Source of the DNA: a virus
DNA: 42,384 bases
Virus record (IMG/VR): IMGVR_UViG_3300050020_000295
Location: 1 to 42,384 of that record
Strand: one strand, 5' to 3'
Positions 6,307 to 37,215 of the stretch are shown piece by piece. The position numbers were made by a program, and so were the translations under genes. Position 1 is the stretch's first letter. Each line of letters starts with the position of its first letter. The notes beneath the pieces were generated by a model that worked only from the letters and a program-made list of their open reading frames with translations, was not told where the DNA came from and did no database searches.

Positions 6307-8514
6307 CTATGCGTACTCGTAGACCATGATGATGCCGGGAGCTCCTGCTCCACCGACGAACGCGCCGCTATTGGTGGTCTGGGCCGCGCCAGCACCGCCT
6401 GCGCCATAGCCTGTTCCTGCGTTGCCGCCGCTGTAAGTGGACGTCGTTGAGCCCTGGCCGCCGCCGCCGTTTACCGAAGACCCACCATTCCCACTGCCAC
6501 CTACAGCCGCCGATTGCCGCATACCGCGTTCCCCTGCGTCGCCCGACCCATTAACGGTGCCGTTCGAACCCGTGCCACCTGCGCCGCCCGCAACGAAAGC
6601 TACTGTCGTGCCCGCCGTCTGCCCGGCCCCTCCCGCGCCTCCCGCTGCCGCGACTGTGGTGCCACCGTTGAACTGGAACGTGGTCGAGGCTCCAGTCGTG
6701 CCGGTGCCTCCGGTGTTCGCGCCACCAGCACCGCCGGTGTTGCTGACGGTGTATGTTCCGGTATGCCCGGTGATGCCGCTTCCGATGAAGTACAGAACGC
6801 GTGCACCCGCGCCCCCACCCGCACCGAAAGCACCGGCGGACGTGATTGTACTGACGCCACCACCGCCACCGCCCGCTCCAACCATCTCCACCAGAATCTT
6901 CCCGGTGCCCGTGGTCGGCGTGTAGGTAGCTGCCGTGCCTGAGGTCAGGACCTGAATGTTCACGAGGCCACCGCCGCCGCCTGCACCAAACGCCGCGTAG
7001 ACGCTGCTACCGATCGCGGCCTGGACTTGAGCAGAGGTGGCCGCCGCGACCGTGCTGCCGTCACCTGCGAGCACACCGCTGATTGCGGTCGTCGTCGAGG
7101 TGGTGACCGTATTGGGGCCGGTCGCACCCGTTGACCCGTTGGTTCCTGTCGTGCCGGTTGGTCCGGTCGCGCCAGTGGGTCCAGGCACCGTCGAGGCTGC
7201 GCCCGTTGCGCCAGTCGGTCCGGTCGCACCCGTCGGACCCGCGACCATGGATGCAGATCCTGTTGCACCGGGGGGTCCTGTTGGCCCGGGCACTACGCTT
7301 GCTGCGCCCGTAGCTCCAGTGGGTCCCGTTGCTCCGGTCGCGCCGGTAGGCCCGGTAACACCCTGAATACCCTGTCCACCCGTCGGCCCAGTCGGACCGG
7401 CAACGATGGAGGCCGCGCCTGTCGGTCCAGTAGCGCCTGTCGGGCCGGGCACCGAGCTGGCTGCGCCGGTAGCGCCGGTAGCGCCCGCCGTTCCAGTTGC
7501 GCCGGTTGCTCCCGTGATGCCTTGAATGCCCTGTGGACCCGTGGGGCCAGTTGGTCCGGCGATGATGCTTGCAGCGCCCGTCGCGCCCGTGGGACCTGTA
7601 AGCCCGGTCGCTCCCGTGGCACCCGCTACGCCCGTGGCACCGGTTGGTCCCGTTATCCCGTTGGTGCCCGCCAGGCCTGTTGCTCCGGTGGCACCGGTGG
7701 CTCCGGTGTTGCCTTGAATACCTTGAGGTCCCGTTGCTCCAGTTGGTCCAGTTGGTCCGGTCGCGCCCGCAGCACCAGCGGTGCCGGTTGCACCTTCCTG
7801 CGCCAGCAGATTCCAGTAGGTCAGATTGGTGTCGGGCTCCTTGTTCGTTCCGCCGAGCAGCGCAATATAGGAGCTGCCGTTGTAGGCGATCGCGTCGTTG
7901 GCCGCATACAGCGTAATGCTGGACCAGTTGCCGCGCCAGTTGGTCGATCCACCCGCTGTGCCCTGGGCTCCGGTGGGACCGGTGAGTCCTTGTGGCCCGG
8001 TTGCTCCAGGTACAGTGCTCGCAGCGCCAGTCGCTCCGGTTGGTCCGGTAGCCCCGATTGGGCCGGTTGCTCCGGTTGGTCCCGCCGCGCCCGTCGTCCC
8101 TGCCGGTCCAGTGGGTCCAGACAAGCCCGGAACTCCACCCACGCAGAGGACGTTCCAGTACGCCGGGTTGTCATCCGGTTCGAAGTTCAGGGTGCCGTTG
8201 CGGATGCAAACGTAGGTCGAGTCGCCGTAGGAGACGCAGTCGTACGCGTTGTATGCGGTCAGGGTGGTGTAGGCCCCCCGCCAGTAAAATCCTTGGGGAA
8301 TCCCCGATCCGGACACACCGTTAAGCCCCGCGCCACCGGCGGGTCCGACTAAGCCAGCGGCGGCCAGAAGGTTCCAGGTGCCGGGGTCGCTGGCAGGGAT
8401 GACATTGGTGCTGCCCACCGCAGCGACGTAGGACGAGCCGAGGTATGACACCGCATCGCCTGCGTTGTAGGCGTTCGTGCCGCTCCAGACTCCGGCCCAA
8501 TTAATTGCACTCAT
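6307..8514 (-). CDS. Collagen-like tail fibre with carbohydrate-binding-like modules
   Basis: This 735-residue fibre is probably at the distal tip of the virion. Three repeats of about 48 residues (about 4-50, 75-125 and 190-240) share the order W-G-x-(Y/W) ... Y ... D-x(2)-(S/A)Y ... S(S/T)Y ... P ... (T/Y)WN(L/V)L, resembling CBM5/12-type carbohydrate-binding modules. Between and after them (about 128-188 and 240-460) lie long Gly-X-Y collagen-like tracts, mainly [10 protein letters not shown]. The C-terminal 200 residues are extremely Gly-rich, like other phage fibre tips. The start at 8514 (MSAINWAG) opens the first module, while the upstream extension to 8619 is unlike the rest. Collagen-like tracts form trimers, which fits a fibre shaft. 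Confidence 0.85.
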
Positions 8515-8569
8515 CCGTGACCCAACCCTCAAGTAAGGGTTAGAAAGTCGAATAGGCCCTGGACCGGGC

Positions 8570-11500
8570 TTACATGTACATGATGGTTCCGGTCCAGCCG
8601 ATCTGCGTTGTCGTCCCATTCAGCGGGGTGGCGACGTTGATCGCAATGCCAGCGGAGAAGTTGAGCAGCGCCAGAACCGACGGGGGAATGAAGACCGATC
8701 CGGAGGCAGCGATCGGGATCGCCCAGACGCATCCTGAGGTCGCCGTGGTCGCCGTGTTGAAGAACTGGATGAAGCCAGCAGTCGCGGTGGAGCTGGTAAT
8801 CGCGAGGCCGTAGAGGTTGCCAGCGCTGGCTTTGATGTTCACCGCCGTCGCCTGAGGTGTGCTGCCACCGAGAACCTTCGCACTCAGCGCCGCACCCGCT
8901 GCTGCCGAGGGGAGGTTGACAGCGTTGACGGCCATGACCTCCGTGCCGGTGGGGGCGGTTCCCAGAGCCGAGACCGCCGCCGCAACCGCCGTGGTCCCGT
9001 CCGTCAGCCGGTTGAACATCGCGTTGGTCGCCGTCTGGACACCGGTGTTGATGCTCACCGGCACGCAGTTCGATGCAGAGACCGGCGCGGTCCCAATATA
9101 GATCGGAGAGTTGCAGGTCAGTGCGTTGCCTGAGAGACCCCCCGTGCCTGCAGCCACCGGCGTGCCGATTGCGGTCGGAGTAGCACCAGCGTAGAGCACT
9201 GCCGCCACCGGCAACGAGTAGGTGGACGTAGAAGGTGCTGTGCCCGTAGCCGCCATCGTTGAGGCGTGTGTTCCGTCAGCAATCGCTGAATAGACGGGCG
9301 CGGTCGCTGTGTTCGAGACGTTCGAAACCGCCACATAAAGAGGATTGTTCGAAGCGTTGGCGGCGCTGGTGGCCGACACGGCCACAGGGTGCAGGGTCCC
9401 GTTCGCATTACCACCAACGTAGAGGTTCACGTTCTGGTTTCCCGATGCGTCCGTGCTCAAGGAACGAACGTCGGTGCCGTCCCAACCCATGGCCACGGTG
9501 CCGGTGGGGGTGGGGACGGCGGCCCCTGCCGCATACTGAGTTCCAGAGGTGCCTCCGCCCGTGATTCCCGTGACGTTCACGTTCAGGCTGCCGCTGGTGC
9601 TAGTCAGGGCGTTGCCCGAGCCATCCTGGGCTTTCGATGTGACTGTGGGAGTGCCGCTGATGCTGACTGTGGGAGTGCCGCTGACGCTGACCGTGGGAGT
9701 TCCGCTGATAGCAACGGTGCCGCTGACGGGGACAGCGGTGGTATTCGAGACGTTCACATACAAAGAGCCGCCCGTGCTCGTCAGGCTGTTGCCGTTGTAA
9801 TCCTGGAGCTTGGAGAAGACCGTGCCCTGCACCGTGGGCGTACCGCTGAGAGTGACGGTGCCGGTGATGGTGGGAGTTCCGCTGATGGCAACGGTGCCGC
9901 TGACGGGAACCGTGCCGCTGACGCCGACCGTGCCGCTGACCGGAACGGTGCCGCTGATCGCAACGGTGGGTGTCCCGGTGACGGCTACGTTTAATGCCCC
10001 TGCTGACGTTGTGCTCAGCGACCGAACATCGGTTCCATCCCAGCCGAGCGCCACAGTGCCCGTGGGCGTGCCGACGGCGGTGCCAGCCGCATACTGTGCG
10101 CCGGTGGTGCCTCCGCCCGTGACGTTCACGTTCAGCGACCCGCCGGTGCTGTTCAGGTTGTTCCCGGAGCCGTCCTGGATCTTAGAGGTGATGGTCCCTG
10201 CTACGGCTACCTTGAGGTTGTTGGAGCTGTCCACCTGAAGCGGCTGCAGCGTTCCGTCGGAAGCGCGGTTCGTAAGGGCCACGCTGCCGATAGGTCCGAT
10301 CGGAAAAGCGATCGTGAACAGGTCAGCTTCAAAACTGGAGCTGTAACCGGCAGGGGGGAAGACGGTCCAGCCCATGGTGTCGCTCGTGACCACACCCACG
10401 GCCTGGTCGCCGATCACTACATCCGTGGAGCTGCTGGTGCCGACCAACGAAGCGGAAGCTCCCTGGAACCGGGGCGCGGTGTAGATCGCCGAGTTGCCGT
10501 CCGTGTATTTGAGGGGACCGATGGATGTCGGGAAGGTGGACAGCATGACGCTGTACAGCATAGAGGGGACGGTGGTGGATACGGTGCCTCCGTTAACGAA
10601 GTGAGGAGAGCCGCTGGCCATGCCCTGCCCGATGTTCGAGCACCAAGGGAGTGTGCCGCTGAGGCTATAGGCACCGAGACCGGCGTATTCGCTGAGCACC
10701 GTGTAGAAGCTGCTGAACAAGCCGCCGGGGGTCACCGTCGCCGTGATGACGGGGGACGGGTCGTACAGATTGCGATGGATGGCCGCATACACCCACACGC
10801 TTCCGTTCGTTGTGGAGGGAAAATGCTGCGACCCCATGGGGAAGTTCGCCAGCATCGTGTACAGGTTTCCGGCATCGTCGGTGACGTGCGCAACGTCACC
10901 CGAACCGGCGGTCACCACGGTCACGATGATCGTGTTCTCCGGCTGAACGTCATGGTCGAAGGTTGCACCTGTACCGCTCGTTTGAGTGGTGGTGAACACC
11001 GGGCTCACCGAAGCCTGGCAGAACTGCGCCTGAGGGATGGTGCCGGAGCCGTACTGCGTCTGGTTCGAGGGCTGAACAGGGTCACCCGCCAGAGTGGTCT
11101 GAAGCGCATGAGAGAAGCTGACGTCATCCGACAGAGCCGTGGTGAGTGAGTAAAGAACATCGATAGTTCCGCTGAATGCGGTGACCGTGTAGATACGCAC
11201 GTAGGGGAATCCGGCGAGGTTGTACCGGGCGGAGACTTCGGCGAAGTCGTTGGTGCTGTACTCCGTCACCTGGGTCGGGGTAGCGTTCAGCAGCGCTCCC
11301 GTCATAGGCGTCCAGTTCGTGCCGTCTGGGGAGCCTTCAACCCGGAACACACCTCCAGCAGTCGGCAATCCCGACACCGGGACGTAGGTGAGCAGCAGAG
11401 TGCTCCACGTAAACAGATTGGAGATGATGCTCAGGTAGCCACCAGCGGATGTTGGAACCGCGCCACTCGCGGTCGTACCCGCCTGGTTGTTATAGACCGC

Positions 11501-12143: not shown

Positions 12144-15100
12144 TTAGATCAGGTCCCAGCCGTCCACACCGTTGGAGATGAAGGTGCAGGACGAATACTG
12201 GTACTTGATCGTGAGGCTGGCCCCGTTGCGGATGGTGTCCGAGCCGCTGCCGACGATGGTGATGGTGTGGGCGTCGGACGAAACCTTGCAGACCGTGATC
12301 TCACCGTTGACGTTCGACGCCGCCGGGGGGAAGGTTGCCGTCAGTTTGCCACTCGCGGTGTTCACCAGATCGCAATCGCTTGCCGCCGGACTCCAGTTCG
12401 CAGAGATGTTGCGGACCACGAAGCCGCCACCGCCACCGACTCCTGGTACGGATGTGATGGGCACCCACGTGGGCGCTGCTGCGGACCCAGTGTTGTTTAC
12501 CAGCGCGTAACCCGGAGGGATTGAGTTGAGACCCGTCGAACCCTGGAGCACGTTAACGCTTCCATCGATGGTGGACACCGAGTGAGCCGGAGTTCCCGTC
12601 ATCAGCAGTCCGGTGGAAGCATCTACTGCGCCGCTGTTGGTCGAGCCGATGGTGAAGGACACCGCCGAGAGGTTGCTCAGCGGCTGAGGGTTGTTGCCGA
12701 AATTGTTCACGGCCTGGAACTTGAGGTAGATGGTCTTCCCCTGCCACAGCGGATCGTAGGTGTACTTGAAGATCGAGCCGTCCAGGCGCATGAACAATGA
12801 GCCAATCGCGTGAGAGCTGATCGTGGTGCCCAGTTGGCCGCGACGGATGTAGCTGTCCATCGTGTATGCGTTCTGGCCAGTCACGGCGGCTGCCGAGTAG
12901 CTGATGACTTCGCCGTCGACATAGGCCAGCATGGTGTCGTTGTCGGCAGCGGTAGTCGTTCCGGAGACCAGGGCGGCGGAGTTCTCCGCGAGCTGGACTA
13001 CCAAGCTGTTGGTCGCGTCGGGATCGCTGCCCACGGAGAAGGTGGAGGCCAGCTCCCCAAGCACGGCAGGCTGGGTGAGCTGAGTCACCTGTGCCCATCG
13101 AACGCCGTCCTCTGAGATCCACACGTTGGTCGCGCCATAGTTAGCGCCCGTTCCGCATGCACCGATCCATAGCTGGTTGCCTGCGAAGCCGGTCAGGCGG
13201 CCAGTGGCCTCGAACATGACAACTTCCGACGTGCCCGGCGATGCCAGCGGGTCCGAGATCACCTGAGCCGACGACAGGCCTTTGTTGAACAGGGTGGGCT
13301 GGCCCGCGCCATAGGGGTAATCCTCAGCTTCAATCTTGATGCCCTCGACAGGATCATCCACTACCTTGGTGATGCGGATGGGCAGGTTGACCACGCCGAG
13401 GTTGGTGTTGTTCAGCCCCTGCGCCCACACCGATGATGTGGTGATGGTCACGAGGTCCATTGCCTCCAGGTAGCTGTACGTGAAGGGCAGCGTGAACTCG
13501 TACGTATTTCTGATGTACGTGCCATGCTTGAGCCGGAGGTTCGCCGCGAAGGTGGCGGCGGCCAGTGTGTGGATGAAGGCCCAGTCCTGAGGATCTTCGA
13601 TCCGCGAGCCGAAGCGATCGATGAGGCTCTGGTCACTCTCAGCCGTGATCTCCTTGGCATACTGGTTGTTCCGGTTGTCCCACTGGACCTGGACCCCGTT
13701 GTACGCATCCTGCCACGCCGAGCGCTTGATGGTTACCGGGTCCACACCTTCCTTGGCAACGAAGCAGGTGTCGTCGAGGGCCACGACGTAGGAGGATGGG
13801 GCGAGCCAGGTGCATCCGTTCGCTGCTGTGGTTGTGTCGCCATACGGAACGAGTTTGAGCAGACCCTCGGAGACGAACGCCGCACACATGCCAGCTTCCA
13901 GCCACTTGCTCATGCAGGAGTCGGCGGTGTCCTGCGAGTCGAGCACGGGGGAGATGAAGAAGTTGTTTGCGGCGAACCAGTTCCATGCCGTAGCGCCCAC
14001 ACTCTGCACGGAAGGTGTACCCGGAGTGCCCCACGTTCCGCCCGGGCCGTTGTCGATGAAGCCTGGGGGAAATGGCTGAGCGCCCACACCGAGACCCCAC
14101 TGGCTGTCGGTAAGCACACGGATCATGCAGTGGACCACGTTGCAGTCAAGGATGGGTGTGCCATCGGCGTAGACCCCGCCCATGATGTCCGGCGTGATGA
14201 CTTCGAAGCTGTTCTGCTGGGGCTCTCCACCCATGCCGAAATCCATGGGCTCGAACAGCAGGATGGCCGCACCGCTGTAACCGAGAGCTGCGCCGGGGTA
14301 GCTGCCGGAGAGGAAGCTGAACGGAGCCTGACCGATGTATCCCTCGGCGAGGGTGAAGTCCAGCATGGTGGACTCGTTCTGCCCGACCGCGTTGGGGTTG
14401 TTGACCTGGAATGTGATGACCACCTCGGCTCCGATGTCAGCAGATGCGAAGTGGTAGGTGGCCGGAGCTGAGCCGGTGACGGAGTATTCTCCGGCTGCAG
14501 AGGGTGAGCCTACGCGTGTGAGGGCGGTGCCTGCGCTCAAACCGGTGCCGCCGTAGACCACACCGAGGTCGGCGTTGAAGGCAAAGGAGCCGCCAACAGA
14601 GATGTTGCAGCCAGCGGGGATGAGGTCGGTCTCTTGCTGATTGATCGTGGTGAGCAGGAAGCCATAGGCCACGGTCACAGTCTTGCCCGCGTCCGCAGAG
14701 GCGAAGTGGTAGATGCCGGTGGCGGGGTCGATGGAATACTGCCCAGCAGTGAGCACGGCCCCATAGACCGCCTGAAAGAGTGAAGTTGAGGTGGTGTTGC
14801 TCACCGTAGTGGAGGTCGGAGCCCCATAGCTGGTGTACGTTCCACTGTAGGTCGATACCGGGGTCACGCCGTAGTTGTTGGTCATGGCACCGGCGTTGGC
14901 CGGTGTGTACGTGTATGAAGGTCCGGCGATGGTGTAGTTCTCCGCCGCCTTAGGCGCACCCAACCATGACTGACCCGACCAGCAGTCACCAATGCCAGAG
15001 ATGGGTCCTGCGCAGAGGCCTGCCACGACATTCGCCGAGTACAGATACTGGCCGTTACCTTTGCCGCCGCCCTTGCCTCCGCCACCACCCTTCTTGCCGG

Positions 15101-31506: not shown

Positions 31507-31812
31507 TTAGAGCAGCTTGGCGACTTCGGCGGGAACGGCTTCCACCACCTTGACGGCGTCGGCAATATGCAGCTCGGTCCAGGCAACGGCCTTGGTCTCG
31601 AACTGCGAGTAGGCGGCGATCGCTTTTTCGAAGTCACCCTGGAGAAGCTTGACGCGGCTGGACAACGTCTCCAACGACGCCAGTGCAGTGGTGGTGTCCA
31701 CGGCGACTGTGAAGGTGATGGCCTTGGCATCCTTCGCCGCGATCGCGACAGGAGTCTTGAAGGCGGTGATGATCCGGACGAGCAGGGCTTTGGTGCGGGT
31801 GAAGATGTTCAT
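31507..31812 (-). CDS. Small phage protein, separate transcription unit
   Basis: This 101-residue helical protein has a basic N-terminus (MNIFTRTKALLVRII) and two long amphipathic helices (about 40-65 and 75-100). GAGGA precedes the ATG. It is the first minus-strand gene left of the control region and is followed by a strong terminator, so it is transcribed alone, probably from a leftward promoter in the control region. That position is often used for lysogeny-maintenance genes, but no DNA-binding motif is visible and no family is recognised. Confidence 0.68.
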   Translation of the reverse strand: MNIFTRTKALLVRIITAFKTPVAIAAKDAKAITFTVAVDTTTALASLETLSSRVKLLQGDFEKAIAAYSQFETKAVAWTELHIADAVKVVEAVPAEVAKLL

Positions 31813-31940
31813 GGATGAGTCCTCTACATGAACGGTGGCGAAGTTCGTTCTTCCGTGGGTGTCGCACGGCTACAGACCTGGTTTACCGCTTTTGAGGGGT
31901 AGAAAACGGGTTTGAAACGGGTTTTTGGAGCGTAACTCAC

Positions 31941-32004
31941 TGATAACAAAGGAGGCAAAATGACCCGAAACGGGTAGGTAATCTTTGTATCGTCTTTGTT
32001 ATCA
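31941..32004. repeat. 11-bp inverted repeat around a five-codon ORF
   Basis: TGATAACAAAG (31941-31951) and CTTTGTTATCA (31994-32004) are perfect inverted copies about 42 bases apart. The loop contains the ACCCGAAACGGGT palindrome and the mini-ORF at 31960-31977. As RNA this would fold into a stem holding the ribosome-binding site in its left arm. Confidence 0.6.
31960..31977 (+). other. Five-codon mini-ORF (MTRNG) with strong Shine-Dalgarno
   Basis: AAAGGAGG (31948-31955) stands four bases before an ATG that opens a five-codon frame ending in TAG. Five residues is too short for a usual protein. The site could be a leader peptide or a place where ribosomes bind for regulation, or it could be chance purine richness. 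Confidence 0.35.
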
Positions 32005-32024
32005 ACAACATGCTCCTTATATAT
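31997..32024 (+). promoter_or_regulatory. Possible rightward promoter
   Basis: TTGTTA (31997-32002), a 16-17-base spacer and TATATA/ATATAT (from 32019) fit a sigma-70-type promoter reading right into the early region. The AT-rich stretch continues to 32063. Overlap with the inverted repeats suggests repressor control. The leader to the first gene at 32493 would be over 450 bases. Confidence 0.4.
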
Positions 32025-32219
32025 GTGATATTAATATAGTTATATAAAATGGGGGATTAAATACCTATTGGTCTGACCAATGTTCCTAATTCCCACGGGC
32101 ACCCTTAACAGAGAAGTCACCTACATCTCTGCTATCCCCTATGAATGGAGCAACATAGCCCCGTTTCAAACCCGTTCAAAACACGTTTTAGACCCCCTAA
32201 AACCGCTCATGTTGTTGAT
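32001..32219. repeat. 12-bp inverted repeat ATCAACAACATG
   Basis: ATCAACAACATG (32001-32012) recurs inverted as CATGTTGTTGAT (32208-32219). The pair is nested with the large inverted repeat, so two different repeat families are paired across the same AT-rich centre. This favours protein binding sites arranged in dyad over chance. Confidence 0.6.
32067..32081. promoter_or_regulatory. 15-bp perfect palindrome, probable operator
   Basis: ATTGGTC T GACCAAT is a perfect seven-base dyad with one central base, just right of the AT-rich promoter-like stretch. It resembles operators for dimeric helix-turn-helix regulators. No other copy was noticed in the window. Confidence 0.55.
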
Positions 32220-32492
32220 TCCACTCCTCCTAAACCCACACACCCACATCCGTCGCCACCACACATGCCCCAGGTCGCCTGGAATACCACCCACCCATGG
32301 CCGCCGCGCCGGTGGTGGGCCAAGGCCTGGTATCTCTTCCAGCGCACCAATCGCGCCTTCCTCAACACTGCAATCCCCAATGTTCATCGGCCTACAAGAC
32401 CTGTCCAGCGACGTGTTTTCTAGCTAAAAACTGACGCAGAAAATCAAAGTTAACGAGAAAACGTGATACCGGGCATAGGGCAGAGGTAGTAA
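32093..32492 (+). other. Leader or control region without a convincing gene
   Basis: About 400 bases between the palindrome and the first early gene. ORFs here are Pro/His-rich and lack ribosome-binding sites. The right arms of two inverted repeats lie at 32162-32219. The last 60 bases before 32493 are A-rich and could contain another promoter, but no hexamer pair with normal spacing stands out. Confidence 0.4.
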
Positions 32493-32858
32493 ATGATGAC
32501 GACTCCGAGCTACACACCTGCACCCAGCCCGTTCAACGATCGCGACATCGCCGATGCAGTCCTCGCCGACGTCACCGCCAACTTCACCACGGACTTCACA
32601 GCAGCCGCAGCCGAGATGCGCCGGAACGCCGCCACCGCGCCGGGTGCCATCATCGATCCGACCGAACCCACCTGCATCATCCACGGCGCTTATGCTGCCC
32701 AAGGTGTTCTTGCCACCGCGCGTGGTCTACGTCTTCACCCATGCCCCACCTGCGCCGCCGCGCTGGTGAAGTGGTCCGATGGCATCCGCGCCAACCTCCA
32801 GGCTACCTCTGCTACGGGCTTCGCCCTATCGTCACAATCGTCGGATCGTTGTCAGTAA
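32493..32858 (+). CDS. Small Cys/His-containing early protein
   Basis: This 121-residue protein is the first of the rightward early operon. Its second half has CIIHGAYAAQG and HPCPTCAAALVKW (about residues 61-92), where Cys61, His64, Cys83 and Cys86 could bind one zinc. The N-terminal half is helical. AGAGGTAG precedes two adjacent ATG codons at 32493 and 32496. Early position and a possible zinc site suggest DNA or protein binding, but no family is recognised. Confidence 0.62.
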   Translation: MMTTPSYTPAPSPFNDRDIADAVLADVTANFTTDFTAAAAEMRRNAATAPGAIIDPTEPTCIIHGAYAAQGVLATARGLRLHPCPTCAAALVKWSDGIRANLQATSATGFALSSQSSDRCQ

Positions 32859-32924
32859 TAAATGACGCCGGGGGTGTAACTAATCCCAGGCGCTCACATC
32901 CCAGTAAGCGTGAGGTTATAGAAA

Positions 32925-33446
32925 ATGACTACCGAAGCCCAGCCCGCCCAAGTCTCCGCCCCCACGAAGTTGTCGATGGCCGCCCGCCTCATCCTGCGTG
33001 TCCTCGCCAGCAGCCCAACCCGTCCCATGACCGTCACCGAGCTGACAGCCAAGACACCTTGCTCCCACGGCACCGCGTACCAGATCACGAAGAAGCTCAC
33101 CGAGGCAGGTTTGCTCACCCCTTATCCTGCCGAATATGGAGTACCGCGCACCTTCGTCATCTCCAACCTCAATCTGCTCACCTCACCGTCGAGCCCATTC
33201 CAGGACGAACCTCTCCAGCGCCTTCTCGCCGACCTGGAGCCCAAGACCTGGAAAGAGGTCTGCGCTCTCCTTCTCGCCATCGTCACCAACGAGTCAATCA
33301 CCGAGGGCGAGCTCATCCTGCGCAGCGGCTGCTCCCCCCGCACCGTCGCCGACTGGCTCGGCTATGCCGAGGAGCACCGCCTTATCACCGACACCGTCTA
33401 CCCGCCCAACAGCTTCAGCGCCCCCAAAATCTACACGATCCTCTAA
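32925..33446 (+). CDS. Double winged-helix protein, regulator or replication initiator candidate
   Basis: This 173-residue protein has two winged-helix-like units. The first (about residues 18-80) runs ARLILRVLASSPTRPMTVTEL ... GTAYQITKKLTEAGLLTPY, and the second (about 105-170) runs WKEVCALLLAIVTNESITEGELILRSG ... PRTVADWLGYAEEHRLI, ending in a short wing. Both resemble MarR/DprA-type winged helices. It lies directly before the replication genes and is the best candidate for a regulator or origin-binding protein in this prophage. A-rich sequence with GAGG precedes the ATG. Confidence 0.72.
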   Translation: MTTEAQPAQVSAPTKLSMAARLILRVLASSPTRPMTVTELTAKTPCSHGTAYQITKKLTEAGLLTPYPAEYGVPRTFVISNLNLLTSPSSPFQDEPLQRLLADLEPKTWKEVCALLLAIVTNESITEGELILRSGCSPRTVADWLGYAEEHRLITDTVYPPNSFSAPKIYTIL

Positions 33447-33611
33447 CCCGGCGAAGTTCGCCACTAACCCCCCGCGCCCGCATACGACCTTACGAACGTA
33501 AAGAACGTCAGCACGCCAAGTCCTTAAGTCCGACTTCTCCGCGCCCGAGTGTACTACGGCACCACCAAATTCACGACCACCGCCAACCAGCGGTCCGGAG
33601 AGTTGCGCTTT
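33447..33611 (+). other. Gap before the replication genes
   Basis: A 165-base gap with a GGCGAA/TTCGCC palindrome (33451-33463) just past the winged-helix gene stop. A GTG-initiated extension of the next gene reaches back to 33549 but lacks a ribosome-binding site. No other gene is seen. Confidence 0.35.
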
Positions 33612-34913
33612 ATGGCTAACATCGAACATGTCGAAGATGACCTGAGTGACCTGGAGATGCCCGGGCCGAAGGTGATGGAATGGGCCACCGAGCCGGTGGC
33701 CGTCCCACCCTTCGTTCAACCGGACTACTACCTGGCCCTGCCCGAGGCGGCGCTCTACGGCAAGCTGGGCGAGCTCACGAAGACGCTCGATAGCCCATTT
33801 TCATGGAGCTGGCCGACCATGGTAACAGCCTTCGCAACTTTGGGCATACACACCATGGGGTCGTACAGCCAGGCGATCCGCCCCAATTTGTACACCGTCT
33901 TGATGGGCAAGGTCGCCTCCGGCAAGTCCACCGTTATGCGGCGCTCCCTGCGCTCGCTCGACATCCCCGAAAAGGCTATCAAGAAGGCGCACGTCGGCAG
34001 CGACCGTGGCCTGGAGCAGGTCCTGCGCGTCCCCAAGCCCGAGGGTTGGAAGAAGGGAGACCCCGAAGACCGGTTCGTTCACACGTCAACGCTGTGGATG
34101 GATGAGATGTCGGGGGTGATGACCAAGCTCGCCTACGAGGGCAGCACCCTGGCACAGAATCTTTGCGACCTCCACGGTGAGGATGAAGTCAGCTTCCCCA
34201 CACGCGACGGCCTGAACACCATCACCGCCAAGCTCAACCTGTTGGGTGCCGTACCTTGCTCCGATGGGCTTTCCTTCAGCTCCGTCTTCACCAGCGCGAC
34301 GACCGGGGGACTCTGGTCCAGGATGATTTTGGCCCCCGGTCCCACCGACTGGACCCCGGACCACACATGGCTCCCTAAGCGCCAGAGACTGACACCCAGC
34401 GTGATCGACATCCCGGTCGAGGCGATCACCACCGCCGCCGCCTGGGCAGCCGACACCAAGGCCCAGATCACCGCCGCAGCCGAGAAGGCGAAGAAGCCGG
34501 TCCCCAACCTAAGCCACATCGATCGCATTTCAGAATCGGCTTTGAGATGTGCCCTCATTCAGAGTTCGGCGAACCATGACGACACCATCACCGAGGCAAG
34601 TCTCCGCGCGGCTCTGGTGATGGCCGACTGGCAGGTGAAGGTAAAGAGCATCTACAAGGCCAGCGCCGCCACCACGCCGGAGGCCGTAGCCGGAAACATG
34701 ATCCTCGACGCACTCGCCAACGCACCGGCGGGTAAGTTCACCAACTTCCCCACCCTCCTCAAGCGCGAAGGCTGGCGCGACACCCTCGGCAGCGCCATCT
34801 TCAACAAGATGAAGCGGGTCATGATCGACAACGAGGAGATCCGCATCGCCATGACCAAGGGCGACGACGGTGAGATCGAAAAACACTGGAATCAGGTGCA
34901 ACTTGTCGACTAA
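33612..34913 (+). CDS. DUF3987-like replication ATPase
   Basis: This 433-residue P-loop protein has Walker A GKVASGKST (about 99-107) and Walker B TLWMDE (about 160-165), followed by a region with SFSSVFTSATTGGLWSRMI (about 215-233) where the arginine may act as sensor. The pattern matches the DUF3987 proteins of mobile elements, which are helicase-like replication or primase-associated ATPases. The ATG at 33612 (MANIEHVEDD) follows a GGAGAG stretch. Its stop overlaps the start of the primase gene, so the two are translated together and probably form a primase-helicase pair. Confidence 0.75.
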   Translation: MANIEHVEDDLSDLEMPGPKVMEWATEPVAVPPFVQPDYYLALPEAALYGKLGELTKTLDSPFSWSWPTMVTAFATLGIHTMGSYSQAIRPNLYTVLMGKVASGKSTVMRRSLRSLDIPEKAIKKAHVGSDRGLEQVLRVPKPEGWKKGDPEDRFVHTSTLWMDEMSGVMTKLAYEGSTLAQNLCDLHGEDEVSFPTRDGLNTITAKLNLLGAVPCSDGLSFSSVFTSATTGGLWSRMILAPGPTDWTPDHTWLPKRQRLTPSVIDIPVEAITTAAAWAADTKAQITAAAEKAKKPVPNLSHIDRISESALRCALIQSSANHDDTITEASLRAALVMADWQVKVKSIYKASAATTPEAVAGNMILDALANAPAGKFTNFPTLLKREGWRDTLGSAIFNKMKRVMIDNEEIRIAMTKGDDGEIEKHWNQVQLVD

Positions 34914-36681
34914 CGCCATCACCACCCAATTCGAGTACGAACAGAAGGTCAGCCGGATCTCGCGCTTCCTCTCCACACTGTTCGAGCGCGGCGACCTCAT
35001 TGAGCTGCGCACCTTGGCTGCACCCGATGGCAAGATCCGGCGCATCCTCACCGCCGATGTACACGTAGCCGCGCGGTGCGCCGTGCTGATGGAGAAGCAG
35101 GACTGCGACGTGTACTACTGCGTCAACCCCGCCGACCCGGACAGATGGTATGCAAAGAACACCCTTCGCGACTTCTACAACACCTGCCAGTACGGTGCTT
35201 GGCGGACCTTGCAGGATGAGGACGTGAAAATCAGGAACACATTCTTCATCGACATCGATGCCCGCCGCCCGGACACCAAGGTCGCAGCCACACCCGAGCA
35301 GGTCGCGGCCACGCTGGTGGCGGCGAAGGCGATCCAGAATTATCTCTGCATCGAGCTTGGTTGGGAAGAGCCCATCGTCGTCGGCAGCGGCAACGGCCAC
35401 CATTTGCTCTTCAAGTCCGAACGCTACGCCGTCAAGGGTGAGTCGTGGCCGAGAGCGCTCGGCTTCCTCGCCAAGACCTTCTCGAACCCCGACGCCGACA
35501 TCGACATCAAGGTGTGCAACCCATCCCGTCTCGCGCGGATGCCATATTGCTTGAACAAGAAATCTCAGCGCTTCGCTACCGTCCTCAGCTACCCCGTCAT
35601 GCTGAAGCCGACCGGCTACGGAACGATGTGGAGCCTGAGCGAGAAGGGAGAAGCAGCCGCGCAGTACAGCGGCGACCGCACCACCAGCGCTCTTCTCCAC
35701 GAAGACTTCGACGTTGAGGATTTCATCGAGGCCTTCCCCGACCAGTTCGGTGATCTGCTCAACGTCACCCCCGACGGCGATCTGACCTACTACAGCACGG
35801 AGATATGCCCGATCAAGGGTGCGCCCCACAGCAACCAACCCGGCAACGGTCATAACTGCCTCATCGTCGGCGGACCTTCCGGGCTCGGGTTCCAATGCTT
35901 CGGATGCGAGGGCACCATCGGCGATGTTCTCCGGCTCCTGCGTGAGCAAACCGGTCACGGATACGACAGACCGATCTGGGCCGACGACGACCTAGATCAC
36001 TCCGACCAGTGGTGGGACTCCCAGGCCAAGGTCTGGGTCGACTTCGATTGGGATGAACTGGGCAAGCGCTTCCCGGTCGAGCTCGCCGACGGTGGCATAC
36101 CAGTCTGGCTCTATGCGGGCATCGCCACCGCAGTCATCGGCGACGACGGAGAGTTCGTGGAGCCGAAGGCGGTGGATGAGGAGGTTGTCGAAGAAGTTGA
36201 GGCCGAGGAGATCGTGGCCGAGGAAAAGGTCGAGGAGGAGGCTGTCGAAGAAGTCATCCCCGAACCCGTGACCGCCCACATCCACAGCGCCCACGTCACC
36301 GCGATCTTCAAATACTGCGCCAACTACGCCGATGGTCTCATCGCCCGCGTCAACCCCGCTGGACAGGCCGCCTTCCGCAAGGAGATCGAGCGCATCCTAC
36401 GCGCGAACGACCGCAAGCGCATCTTCGAGCTCCTGGGTACGAGCATGATCACCGAGCTCTACACGAACTTCTTGACGTCACCCGAGCCGCTGGATTTTGA
36501 AACCGATTTCATGCTCACCGGCACCATCGAGTTCCACGGCCATGAGATGGCGATCGCGGCGAAGGCCTTCACCGAGGCGAAGTGGCAGGCAAGTATCAGC
36601 GGAGAATCCGCTCCGCATAAGGCGGAGATGGGGTATGGTGATCACCATGATCGACGCTCCCAAGCCCACCCAACCCGCTGA
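34903..36681 (+). CDS. Archaeo-eukaryotic-type primase with CHC2-like zinc site
   Basis: This protein of about 592 residues makes primers for phage replication. The primase core has FFIDIDARR (about 114-122, metal-binding Asp residues), SGNGHH (about 162-167, the sxH motif) and DIDIKVCNPSRLARMPY (about 199-215). A zinc-finger-like part has C302, H309, C332 and C335 in FQCFGCEGTIGD, as in CHC2 modules. A Glu/Val-rich acidic stretch (about 424-455) links to a helical C-terminus. A TTG at 34903 with CAGGTG upstream is the preferred start. A GTG at 34870 is an alternative. The end overlaps the next gene by 47 bases. Confidence 0.82.
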   Translation: MSTNAITTQFEYEQKVSRISRFLSTLFERGDLIELRTLAAPDGKIRRILTADVHVAARCAVLMEKQDCDVYYCVNPADPDRWYAKNTLRDFYNTCQYGAWRTLQDEDVKIRNTFFIDIDARRPDTKVAATPEQVAATLVAAKAIQNYLCIELGWEEPIVVGSGNGHHLLFKSERYAVKGESWPRALGFLAKTFSNPDADIDIKVCNPSRLARMPYCLNKKSQRFATVLSYPVMLKPTGYGTMWSLSEKGEAAAQYSGDRTTSALLHEDFDVEDFIEAFPDQFGDLLNVTPDGDLTYYSTEICPIKGAPHSNQPGNGHNCLIVGGPSGLGFQCFGCEGTIGDVLRLLREQTGHGYDRPIWADDDLDHSDQWWDSQAKVWVDFDWDELGKRFPVELADGGIPVWLYAGIATAVIGDDGEFVEPKAVDEEVVEEVEAEEIVAEEKVEEEAVEEVIPEPVTAHIHSAHVTAIFKYCANYADGLIARVNPAGQAAFRKEIERILRANDRKRIFELLGTSMITELYTNFLTSPEPLDFETDFMLTGTIEFHGHEMAIAAKAFTEAKWQASISGESAPHKAEMGYGDHHDRRSQAHPTR

Positions 36682-37151: not shown

Positions 37152-37215
37152 TATTTGGAGCCGAGGCAACTTTCCCGGTATTACCTAAAGACACCCCGTA
37201 AGTGAGACCCGTTTT

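Follow-up and report, generated by a model that had tools for sequence, protein, structure and literature searches.

The window analysed here is an IMG/VR virus record of 42,384 nucleotides, in which leftward late genes (tail, HK97 capsid and terminase) extend up to position 31812 and a rightward module beyond them encodes a winged-helix protein, a putative helicase, a putative primase, two HTH_17 proteins and a tyrosine integrase. All assigned phage genes lie on the minus strand to the left of the region considered below (31885–32210) and on the plus strand to its right as far as the integrase, in agreement with the gene divergence noted here in the preliminary description. Among the tail genes, a collagen-like GPTGATG repeat protein is encoded at 6307–8619.

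The region is bounded by two inverted arms of 38 nt, at 31887–31924 and 32168–32205, which are complementary at 30 of 38 positions (79%), are separated by 243 nt and lie 281 nt apart from start to start. Within them, an inner 17-nt pair (31905–31921 and 32160–32176) is 100% complementary; nowhere else in the whole window does an exact inverted pair reach 14 nt within 400 nt. Dinucleotide shuffles (n = 60) gave means of 0.1 such pairs for 14-mers and 0 for 17-mers, and the best 38-nt arms of local shuffles (n = 40) reached at most 23 of 38. The anatomy of the arms is thus far beyond chance. From its outer end inward, each arm consists of a CGnTTTTnnGGGG-like box (TTTTGAGGGG in the left arm) followed by units with an AAACGGG core at 11-bp steps, two in the left arm and three in the right arm. 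The left units are exact and lie on the plus strand (31904–31910 and 31915–31921), and those on the right lie on the minus strand, one exact (32160–32166) and two with one mismatch each (GAACGGG, 32171–32177; AAACGTG, 32182–32188); a lone exact copy on the plus strand (31968–31974) lies inside a ACCCGAAACGGGT hairpin. The earlier reading of two arms of about 40 bases, about 280 bases apart and carrying tandem iteron-like units, is borne out by these measurements.

Four of the six exact AAACGGG copies in the window fall in this region, a count that does not exceed that of local shuffles (maximum, 4), and seven matches with at most one mismatch within 330 bp represent the window maximum; the significance of the repeat region is accordingly owed to the long inverted arms, not to the exact 7-mer count alone. 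No second copy of the arm or unit sequences was found near either window end. An exact search of viral contigs with the 17-mer gave matches in four contigs, which are unrelated to the window and were judged to match by chance. A stray iteron-like AAACGGGTCT is found at 37205–37214, ending just upstream of the ATG of the second HTH_17 gene.

The centre between the arms is AT-rich, as had been proposed, and is extreme in this respect: the 80 bp at 31981–32060 (GC 0.2625; 26% vs 60%) are the lowest in GC of 8,461 such segments of the window. The middle region also holds two further inverted pairs. A nested inverted pair, TGATAACAAAG/CTTTGTTATCA, spans 31941–32004. A TTTGTTATCAACAACATG element on the plus strand (31995–32012) matches an element of the related record L043 at 15 of 16 bases and contains a DnaA-box-like TTATCAACA, one mismatch away from TTATCCACA; canonical DnaA boxes are absent from the region. 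Part of this element, ATCAACAACATG, recurs inverted at 32208–32219. A perfect 15-bp palindrome, ATTGGTCTGACCAAT (32067–32081), is unique in the window and operator-like, and may be an operator for a repressor, distinct from the iterons. At 31947–31977, a strong Shine–Dalgarno-like AAAGGAGG precedes a 5-codon ORF (MTRNG), and the ACCCGAAACGGGT hairpin is made up of the codons of this ORF, an arrangement that is possibly due to chance. The right arm overlaps two small ORFs, 32080–32427 and 32145–32423; no counterpart of either was observed in L043 or in a further related record, L019. A 121-aa ORF with a CxxH...CxxC pattern (32493–32858) lies between the region and the winged-helix gene; family searches gave it no match above noise, and tblastn gave none in L043.

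The winged-helix protein (32925–33446, plus strand), belonging to a family of three members here, shows 48% full-length identity to its homologue in L043 and 34% identity to that in L019 over the N domain. It is predicted with moderate confidence (pLDDT 64) to contain a tandem pair of winged helices. The N domain is similar to ordinary regulators, the Pfam matches are generic winged helices, and the matches listed in sequence and fold searches of the PDB are regulators; no plasmid Rep is among those listed by the fold searches, an absence that carries no weight. The stretch upstream of its gene, containing GGGGTGTAAC, is 75% conserved between the window (32849–32949) and L043 (4759–4855), although the iteron words of the two differ, and is probably the promoter or leader of the winged-helix gene. 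The helicase and primase assignments rest on weak profile matches plus the conserved neighbourhood: the putative replicative helicase (33549–34913, plus strand) has a weak DUF3987 match, a Walker A-like GKVASGKS and a PHROG helicase match at 6e-9, with a structure model too poor to use (pLDDT 35), and the putative primase (34870–36681, plus strand) has a weak PHROG match to DNA polymerase/primase. A DNA search of a phage collection with the region gave no match, nor did protein searches of phages and plasmids with the helicase; those with the primase returned two weak phage matches and one weak plasmid match, and nothing else. Single-protein scans with the helicase, winged-helix protein and primase found no relatives in viral and genome contigs, nor did the terminase in genome contigs, and alignments were needed.

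Related phages were gathered by searches with the terminase and HNH/ATPase genes, except for L043, which was found by primase alignment (L045, identical in DNA to L043, was left out of counts). The late genes of these relatives align with the window, homology ends near the junction and different replication genes follow beyond it; L019 and L043 have winged-helix, helicase and primase homologues. The preliminary description had named absence of the repeats from related phages as a refuting outcome. The AACGGGTTT word is indeed absent from all five related records tested, but at the same late/replication junction its place is taken by equivalent clusters built from other words: TGACATG in L043 (13 copies in the locus of 14), TGACTAT in L019 (all 7 copies in the locus), GTAACGC in L014 (11 copies) and TCAGGAC in L009 (8 copies, nearly all direct repeats with an exact 11-bp period), each well above shuffles, and a weaker TGGACCA cluster adjoining another winged-helix gene in L020. 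Absence from relatives is thus misleading as a refuting outcome. A location-blind scan of whole contigs placed the top 7-mer cluster at the junction in L009, L014, L015, L019, L020 and L043; no such cluster was present in the sequence examined of L022, L023 and L024. The picture is cleaner in L014, L019 and L043 than in L009 and L020. At the junction of L015 (4250–4560), we observed microsatellite-like GATAGA and GCAACA/GCAAAAG repeats and no compact iterons. A 9-mer common to the window and L019, ACCAATGTT, was dismissed as chance.

The clusters of the relatives comprise 7–13 copies, of mixed orientation except in L009, and extend over 300–500 bp about the lowest-GC point. In the window, L043 and L014, the 80 bp lowest in GC of the examined sequence are framed by the repeats; in L019 the second-lowest are, and the L009 array lies beside a low-GC stretch. 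The word also follows the replication module and not the packaging and late genes, because L009, with a terminase 88% identical to that of the window, differs from the window in both replication module and word. Conversely, the L043 terminase is just 35% identical, but the replication genes are homologous and the layout is the same.

On these grounds, the region at 31885–32210 is probably the replication origin of the phage, of the iteron type and bound by an initiator. An origin is favoured over an operator on three grounds: clusters are found also at junctions without gene divergence (L014 and L009), a change of replication module brings a change of word against a conserved packaging module, and phased units flanking an AT-rich minimum represent the anatomy of an iteron origin. 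Counting against this interpretation, the iterons are few (5–6) and degenerate on the right side. The cumulative GC skew peaks at the junction with a sign opposite to the usual origin rule, a signal confounded by gene direction. Further points against it are the small size of the winged-helix family, its moderate structure model and regulator-like N domain, the weak helicase and primase profiles, the lack of a cluster in the examined sequence of L022, L023 and L024, and the microsatellite-like and weak clusters of L015 and L020. In the predicted mechanism, for which we infer the identity of the binding protein, the melting and the initiation, the 11-bp-phased AAACGGG units, in their two opposed sets, would be bound by an initiator of the phage, for which the tandem winged-helix protein is the likeliest candidate; the bound sets would put strain on the AT-rich stretch that they enclose, a proposed unwinding element, and melt it, and the phage's own helicase and primase would then be loaded there. 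Initiators often repress themselves, and binding at the same sites may repress the initiator's own rightward promoter, making an additional operator function plausible. The original proposal of an operator, an origin or both is thereby narrowed by the comparison towards an origin, with which an operator role of the same sites may coexist.

It is rather unlikely that the region serves solely as a compound operator, at which the winged-helix protein or an HTH_17 repressor would control divergent promoters, late leftward and early rightward, while replication starts elsewhere. The position between divergent genes, the regulator-like N-terminal winged helix, the palindrome at 32067–32081 and the stray AAACGGGTCT before the second HTH_17 gene all agree with such a role, but the equivalent clusters of L014 and L009 lie where promoters do not diverge, the number and spread of copies around the lowest-GC point in relatives would be unusual for an operator, and the region yielded no sigma-70-like promoter. 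There is a slim chance that the arms instead pair as a long hairpin in a structured single-strand or RNA element, such as a leader RNA, an antitermination site or a single-strand origin: folded as DNA, the strand is far more stable than shuffles (z = −6.0), and the inverted pairs are nested. Inverted iterons, however, produce such a fold automatically, no Rfam family (nor any tRNA) was found in the region, and the relatives mix unit orientations, with almost all direct repeats in L009. A packaging (cos/pac) site, with the units as sites for the terminase small subunit like the R sites of lambda cosB, is very improbable; some small terminases use winged helices, and the HNH/ATPase gene and terminase lie 1–6 kb away, but L009 and L020 have other words despite terminases 79–88% identical to that of the window, and L043 shows the reverse combination. 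An attachment site or integrase arm-site region, suggested by the tyrosine integrase of the element, can hardly be entertained, with the integrase 5.5 kb away and the sequences lacking a second copy near either end.

The proposed origin is worth comparing with those of known replicons. In phage-inducible chromosomal islands (PICIs), two iteron sets flank an AT-rich region (PMC6092414), and PICI/SaPI origins resemble the window in having short iteron sets around such a region beside a helicase/primase module, with a word that varies between elements as it does in these phages (PMC6092414, PMC7581432). In those satellites, however, the origin lies immediately 3′ of the rep gene, a feature seen only in L014, where the repeats follow the Prim-Pol protein on its 3′ side as they do in PICIs; those of the window, L019 and L043 are located 5′ of the winged-helix gene. 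Moreover, the iterons of PICI/SaPI are bound by the C-terminal domain of the helicase, whereas the candidate initiator of the window, L019 and L043 is a separate protein with predicted tandem winged helices. Satellites also lack the full set of virion genes, whereas the window carries terminase, HK97 capsid and tail genes. We therefore consider that the region would work like a PICI origin but do not class it as one, because it has the two-sided iteron/AT layout and not the position 3′ of rep; L014 combines both features, but in a tailed phage.

In the lambda-type origin (O protein iterons; PMC7466680), sites for a phage initiator likewise adjoin an AT-rich tract, but there the iterons are a single direct array, within gene O and to one side of the tract. 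Unlike those of lambda, the window iterons lie outside recognisable replication genes, are inverted and occupy both sides of the AT tract. A cluster resembling the lambda-like in-gene origin was observed in L029 (reverse complement, 12250–12360), in which CTCGCAA repeats in both orientations lie inside a leftward 283-aa ORF. Plasmid iterons are usually on one side and in one direction. Winged helices are the building blocks of plasmid Rep initiators; these proteins bind iterons cooperatively, and cooperative binding is lost when the spacing changes by half a turn (PMC4980987), a requirement with which the 11-bp unit steps are in keeping. Iteron plasmids with a winged-helix Rep (RepE, pi and TrfA; PMC4980987) share with the window phased short repeats, an AT-rich region and, as a candidate here, a tandem winged-helix initiator. 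Among the matches listed, none in sequence linked the winged-helix protein to plasmid Reps, and, unlike these plasmids, the phage encodes a putative helicase and primase of its own.

As a tentative extension, which we regard as possible though doubtful, the junction might be a swap site for self-contained replication cassettes, each with its own initiator and iteron word; the two-sided layout would be that reported as unique to PICIs, satellite origins might be derived from or shared with those of full phages, and the subgroup of the window might use a new, tandem winged-helix type of initiator. If a PICI-like layout holds in full tailed phages, it would be relevant to the source of satellite origins, and the differing words matched to differing replication modules at one conserved junction would provide a natural series for tests of initiator–iteron specificity.
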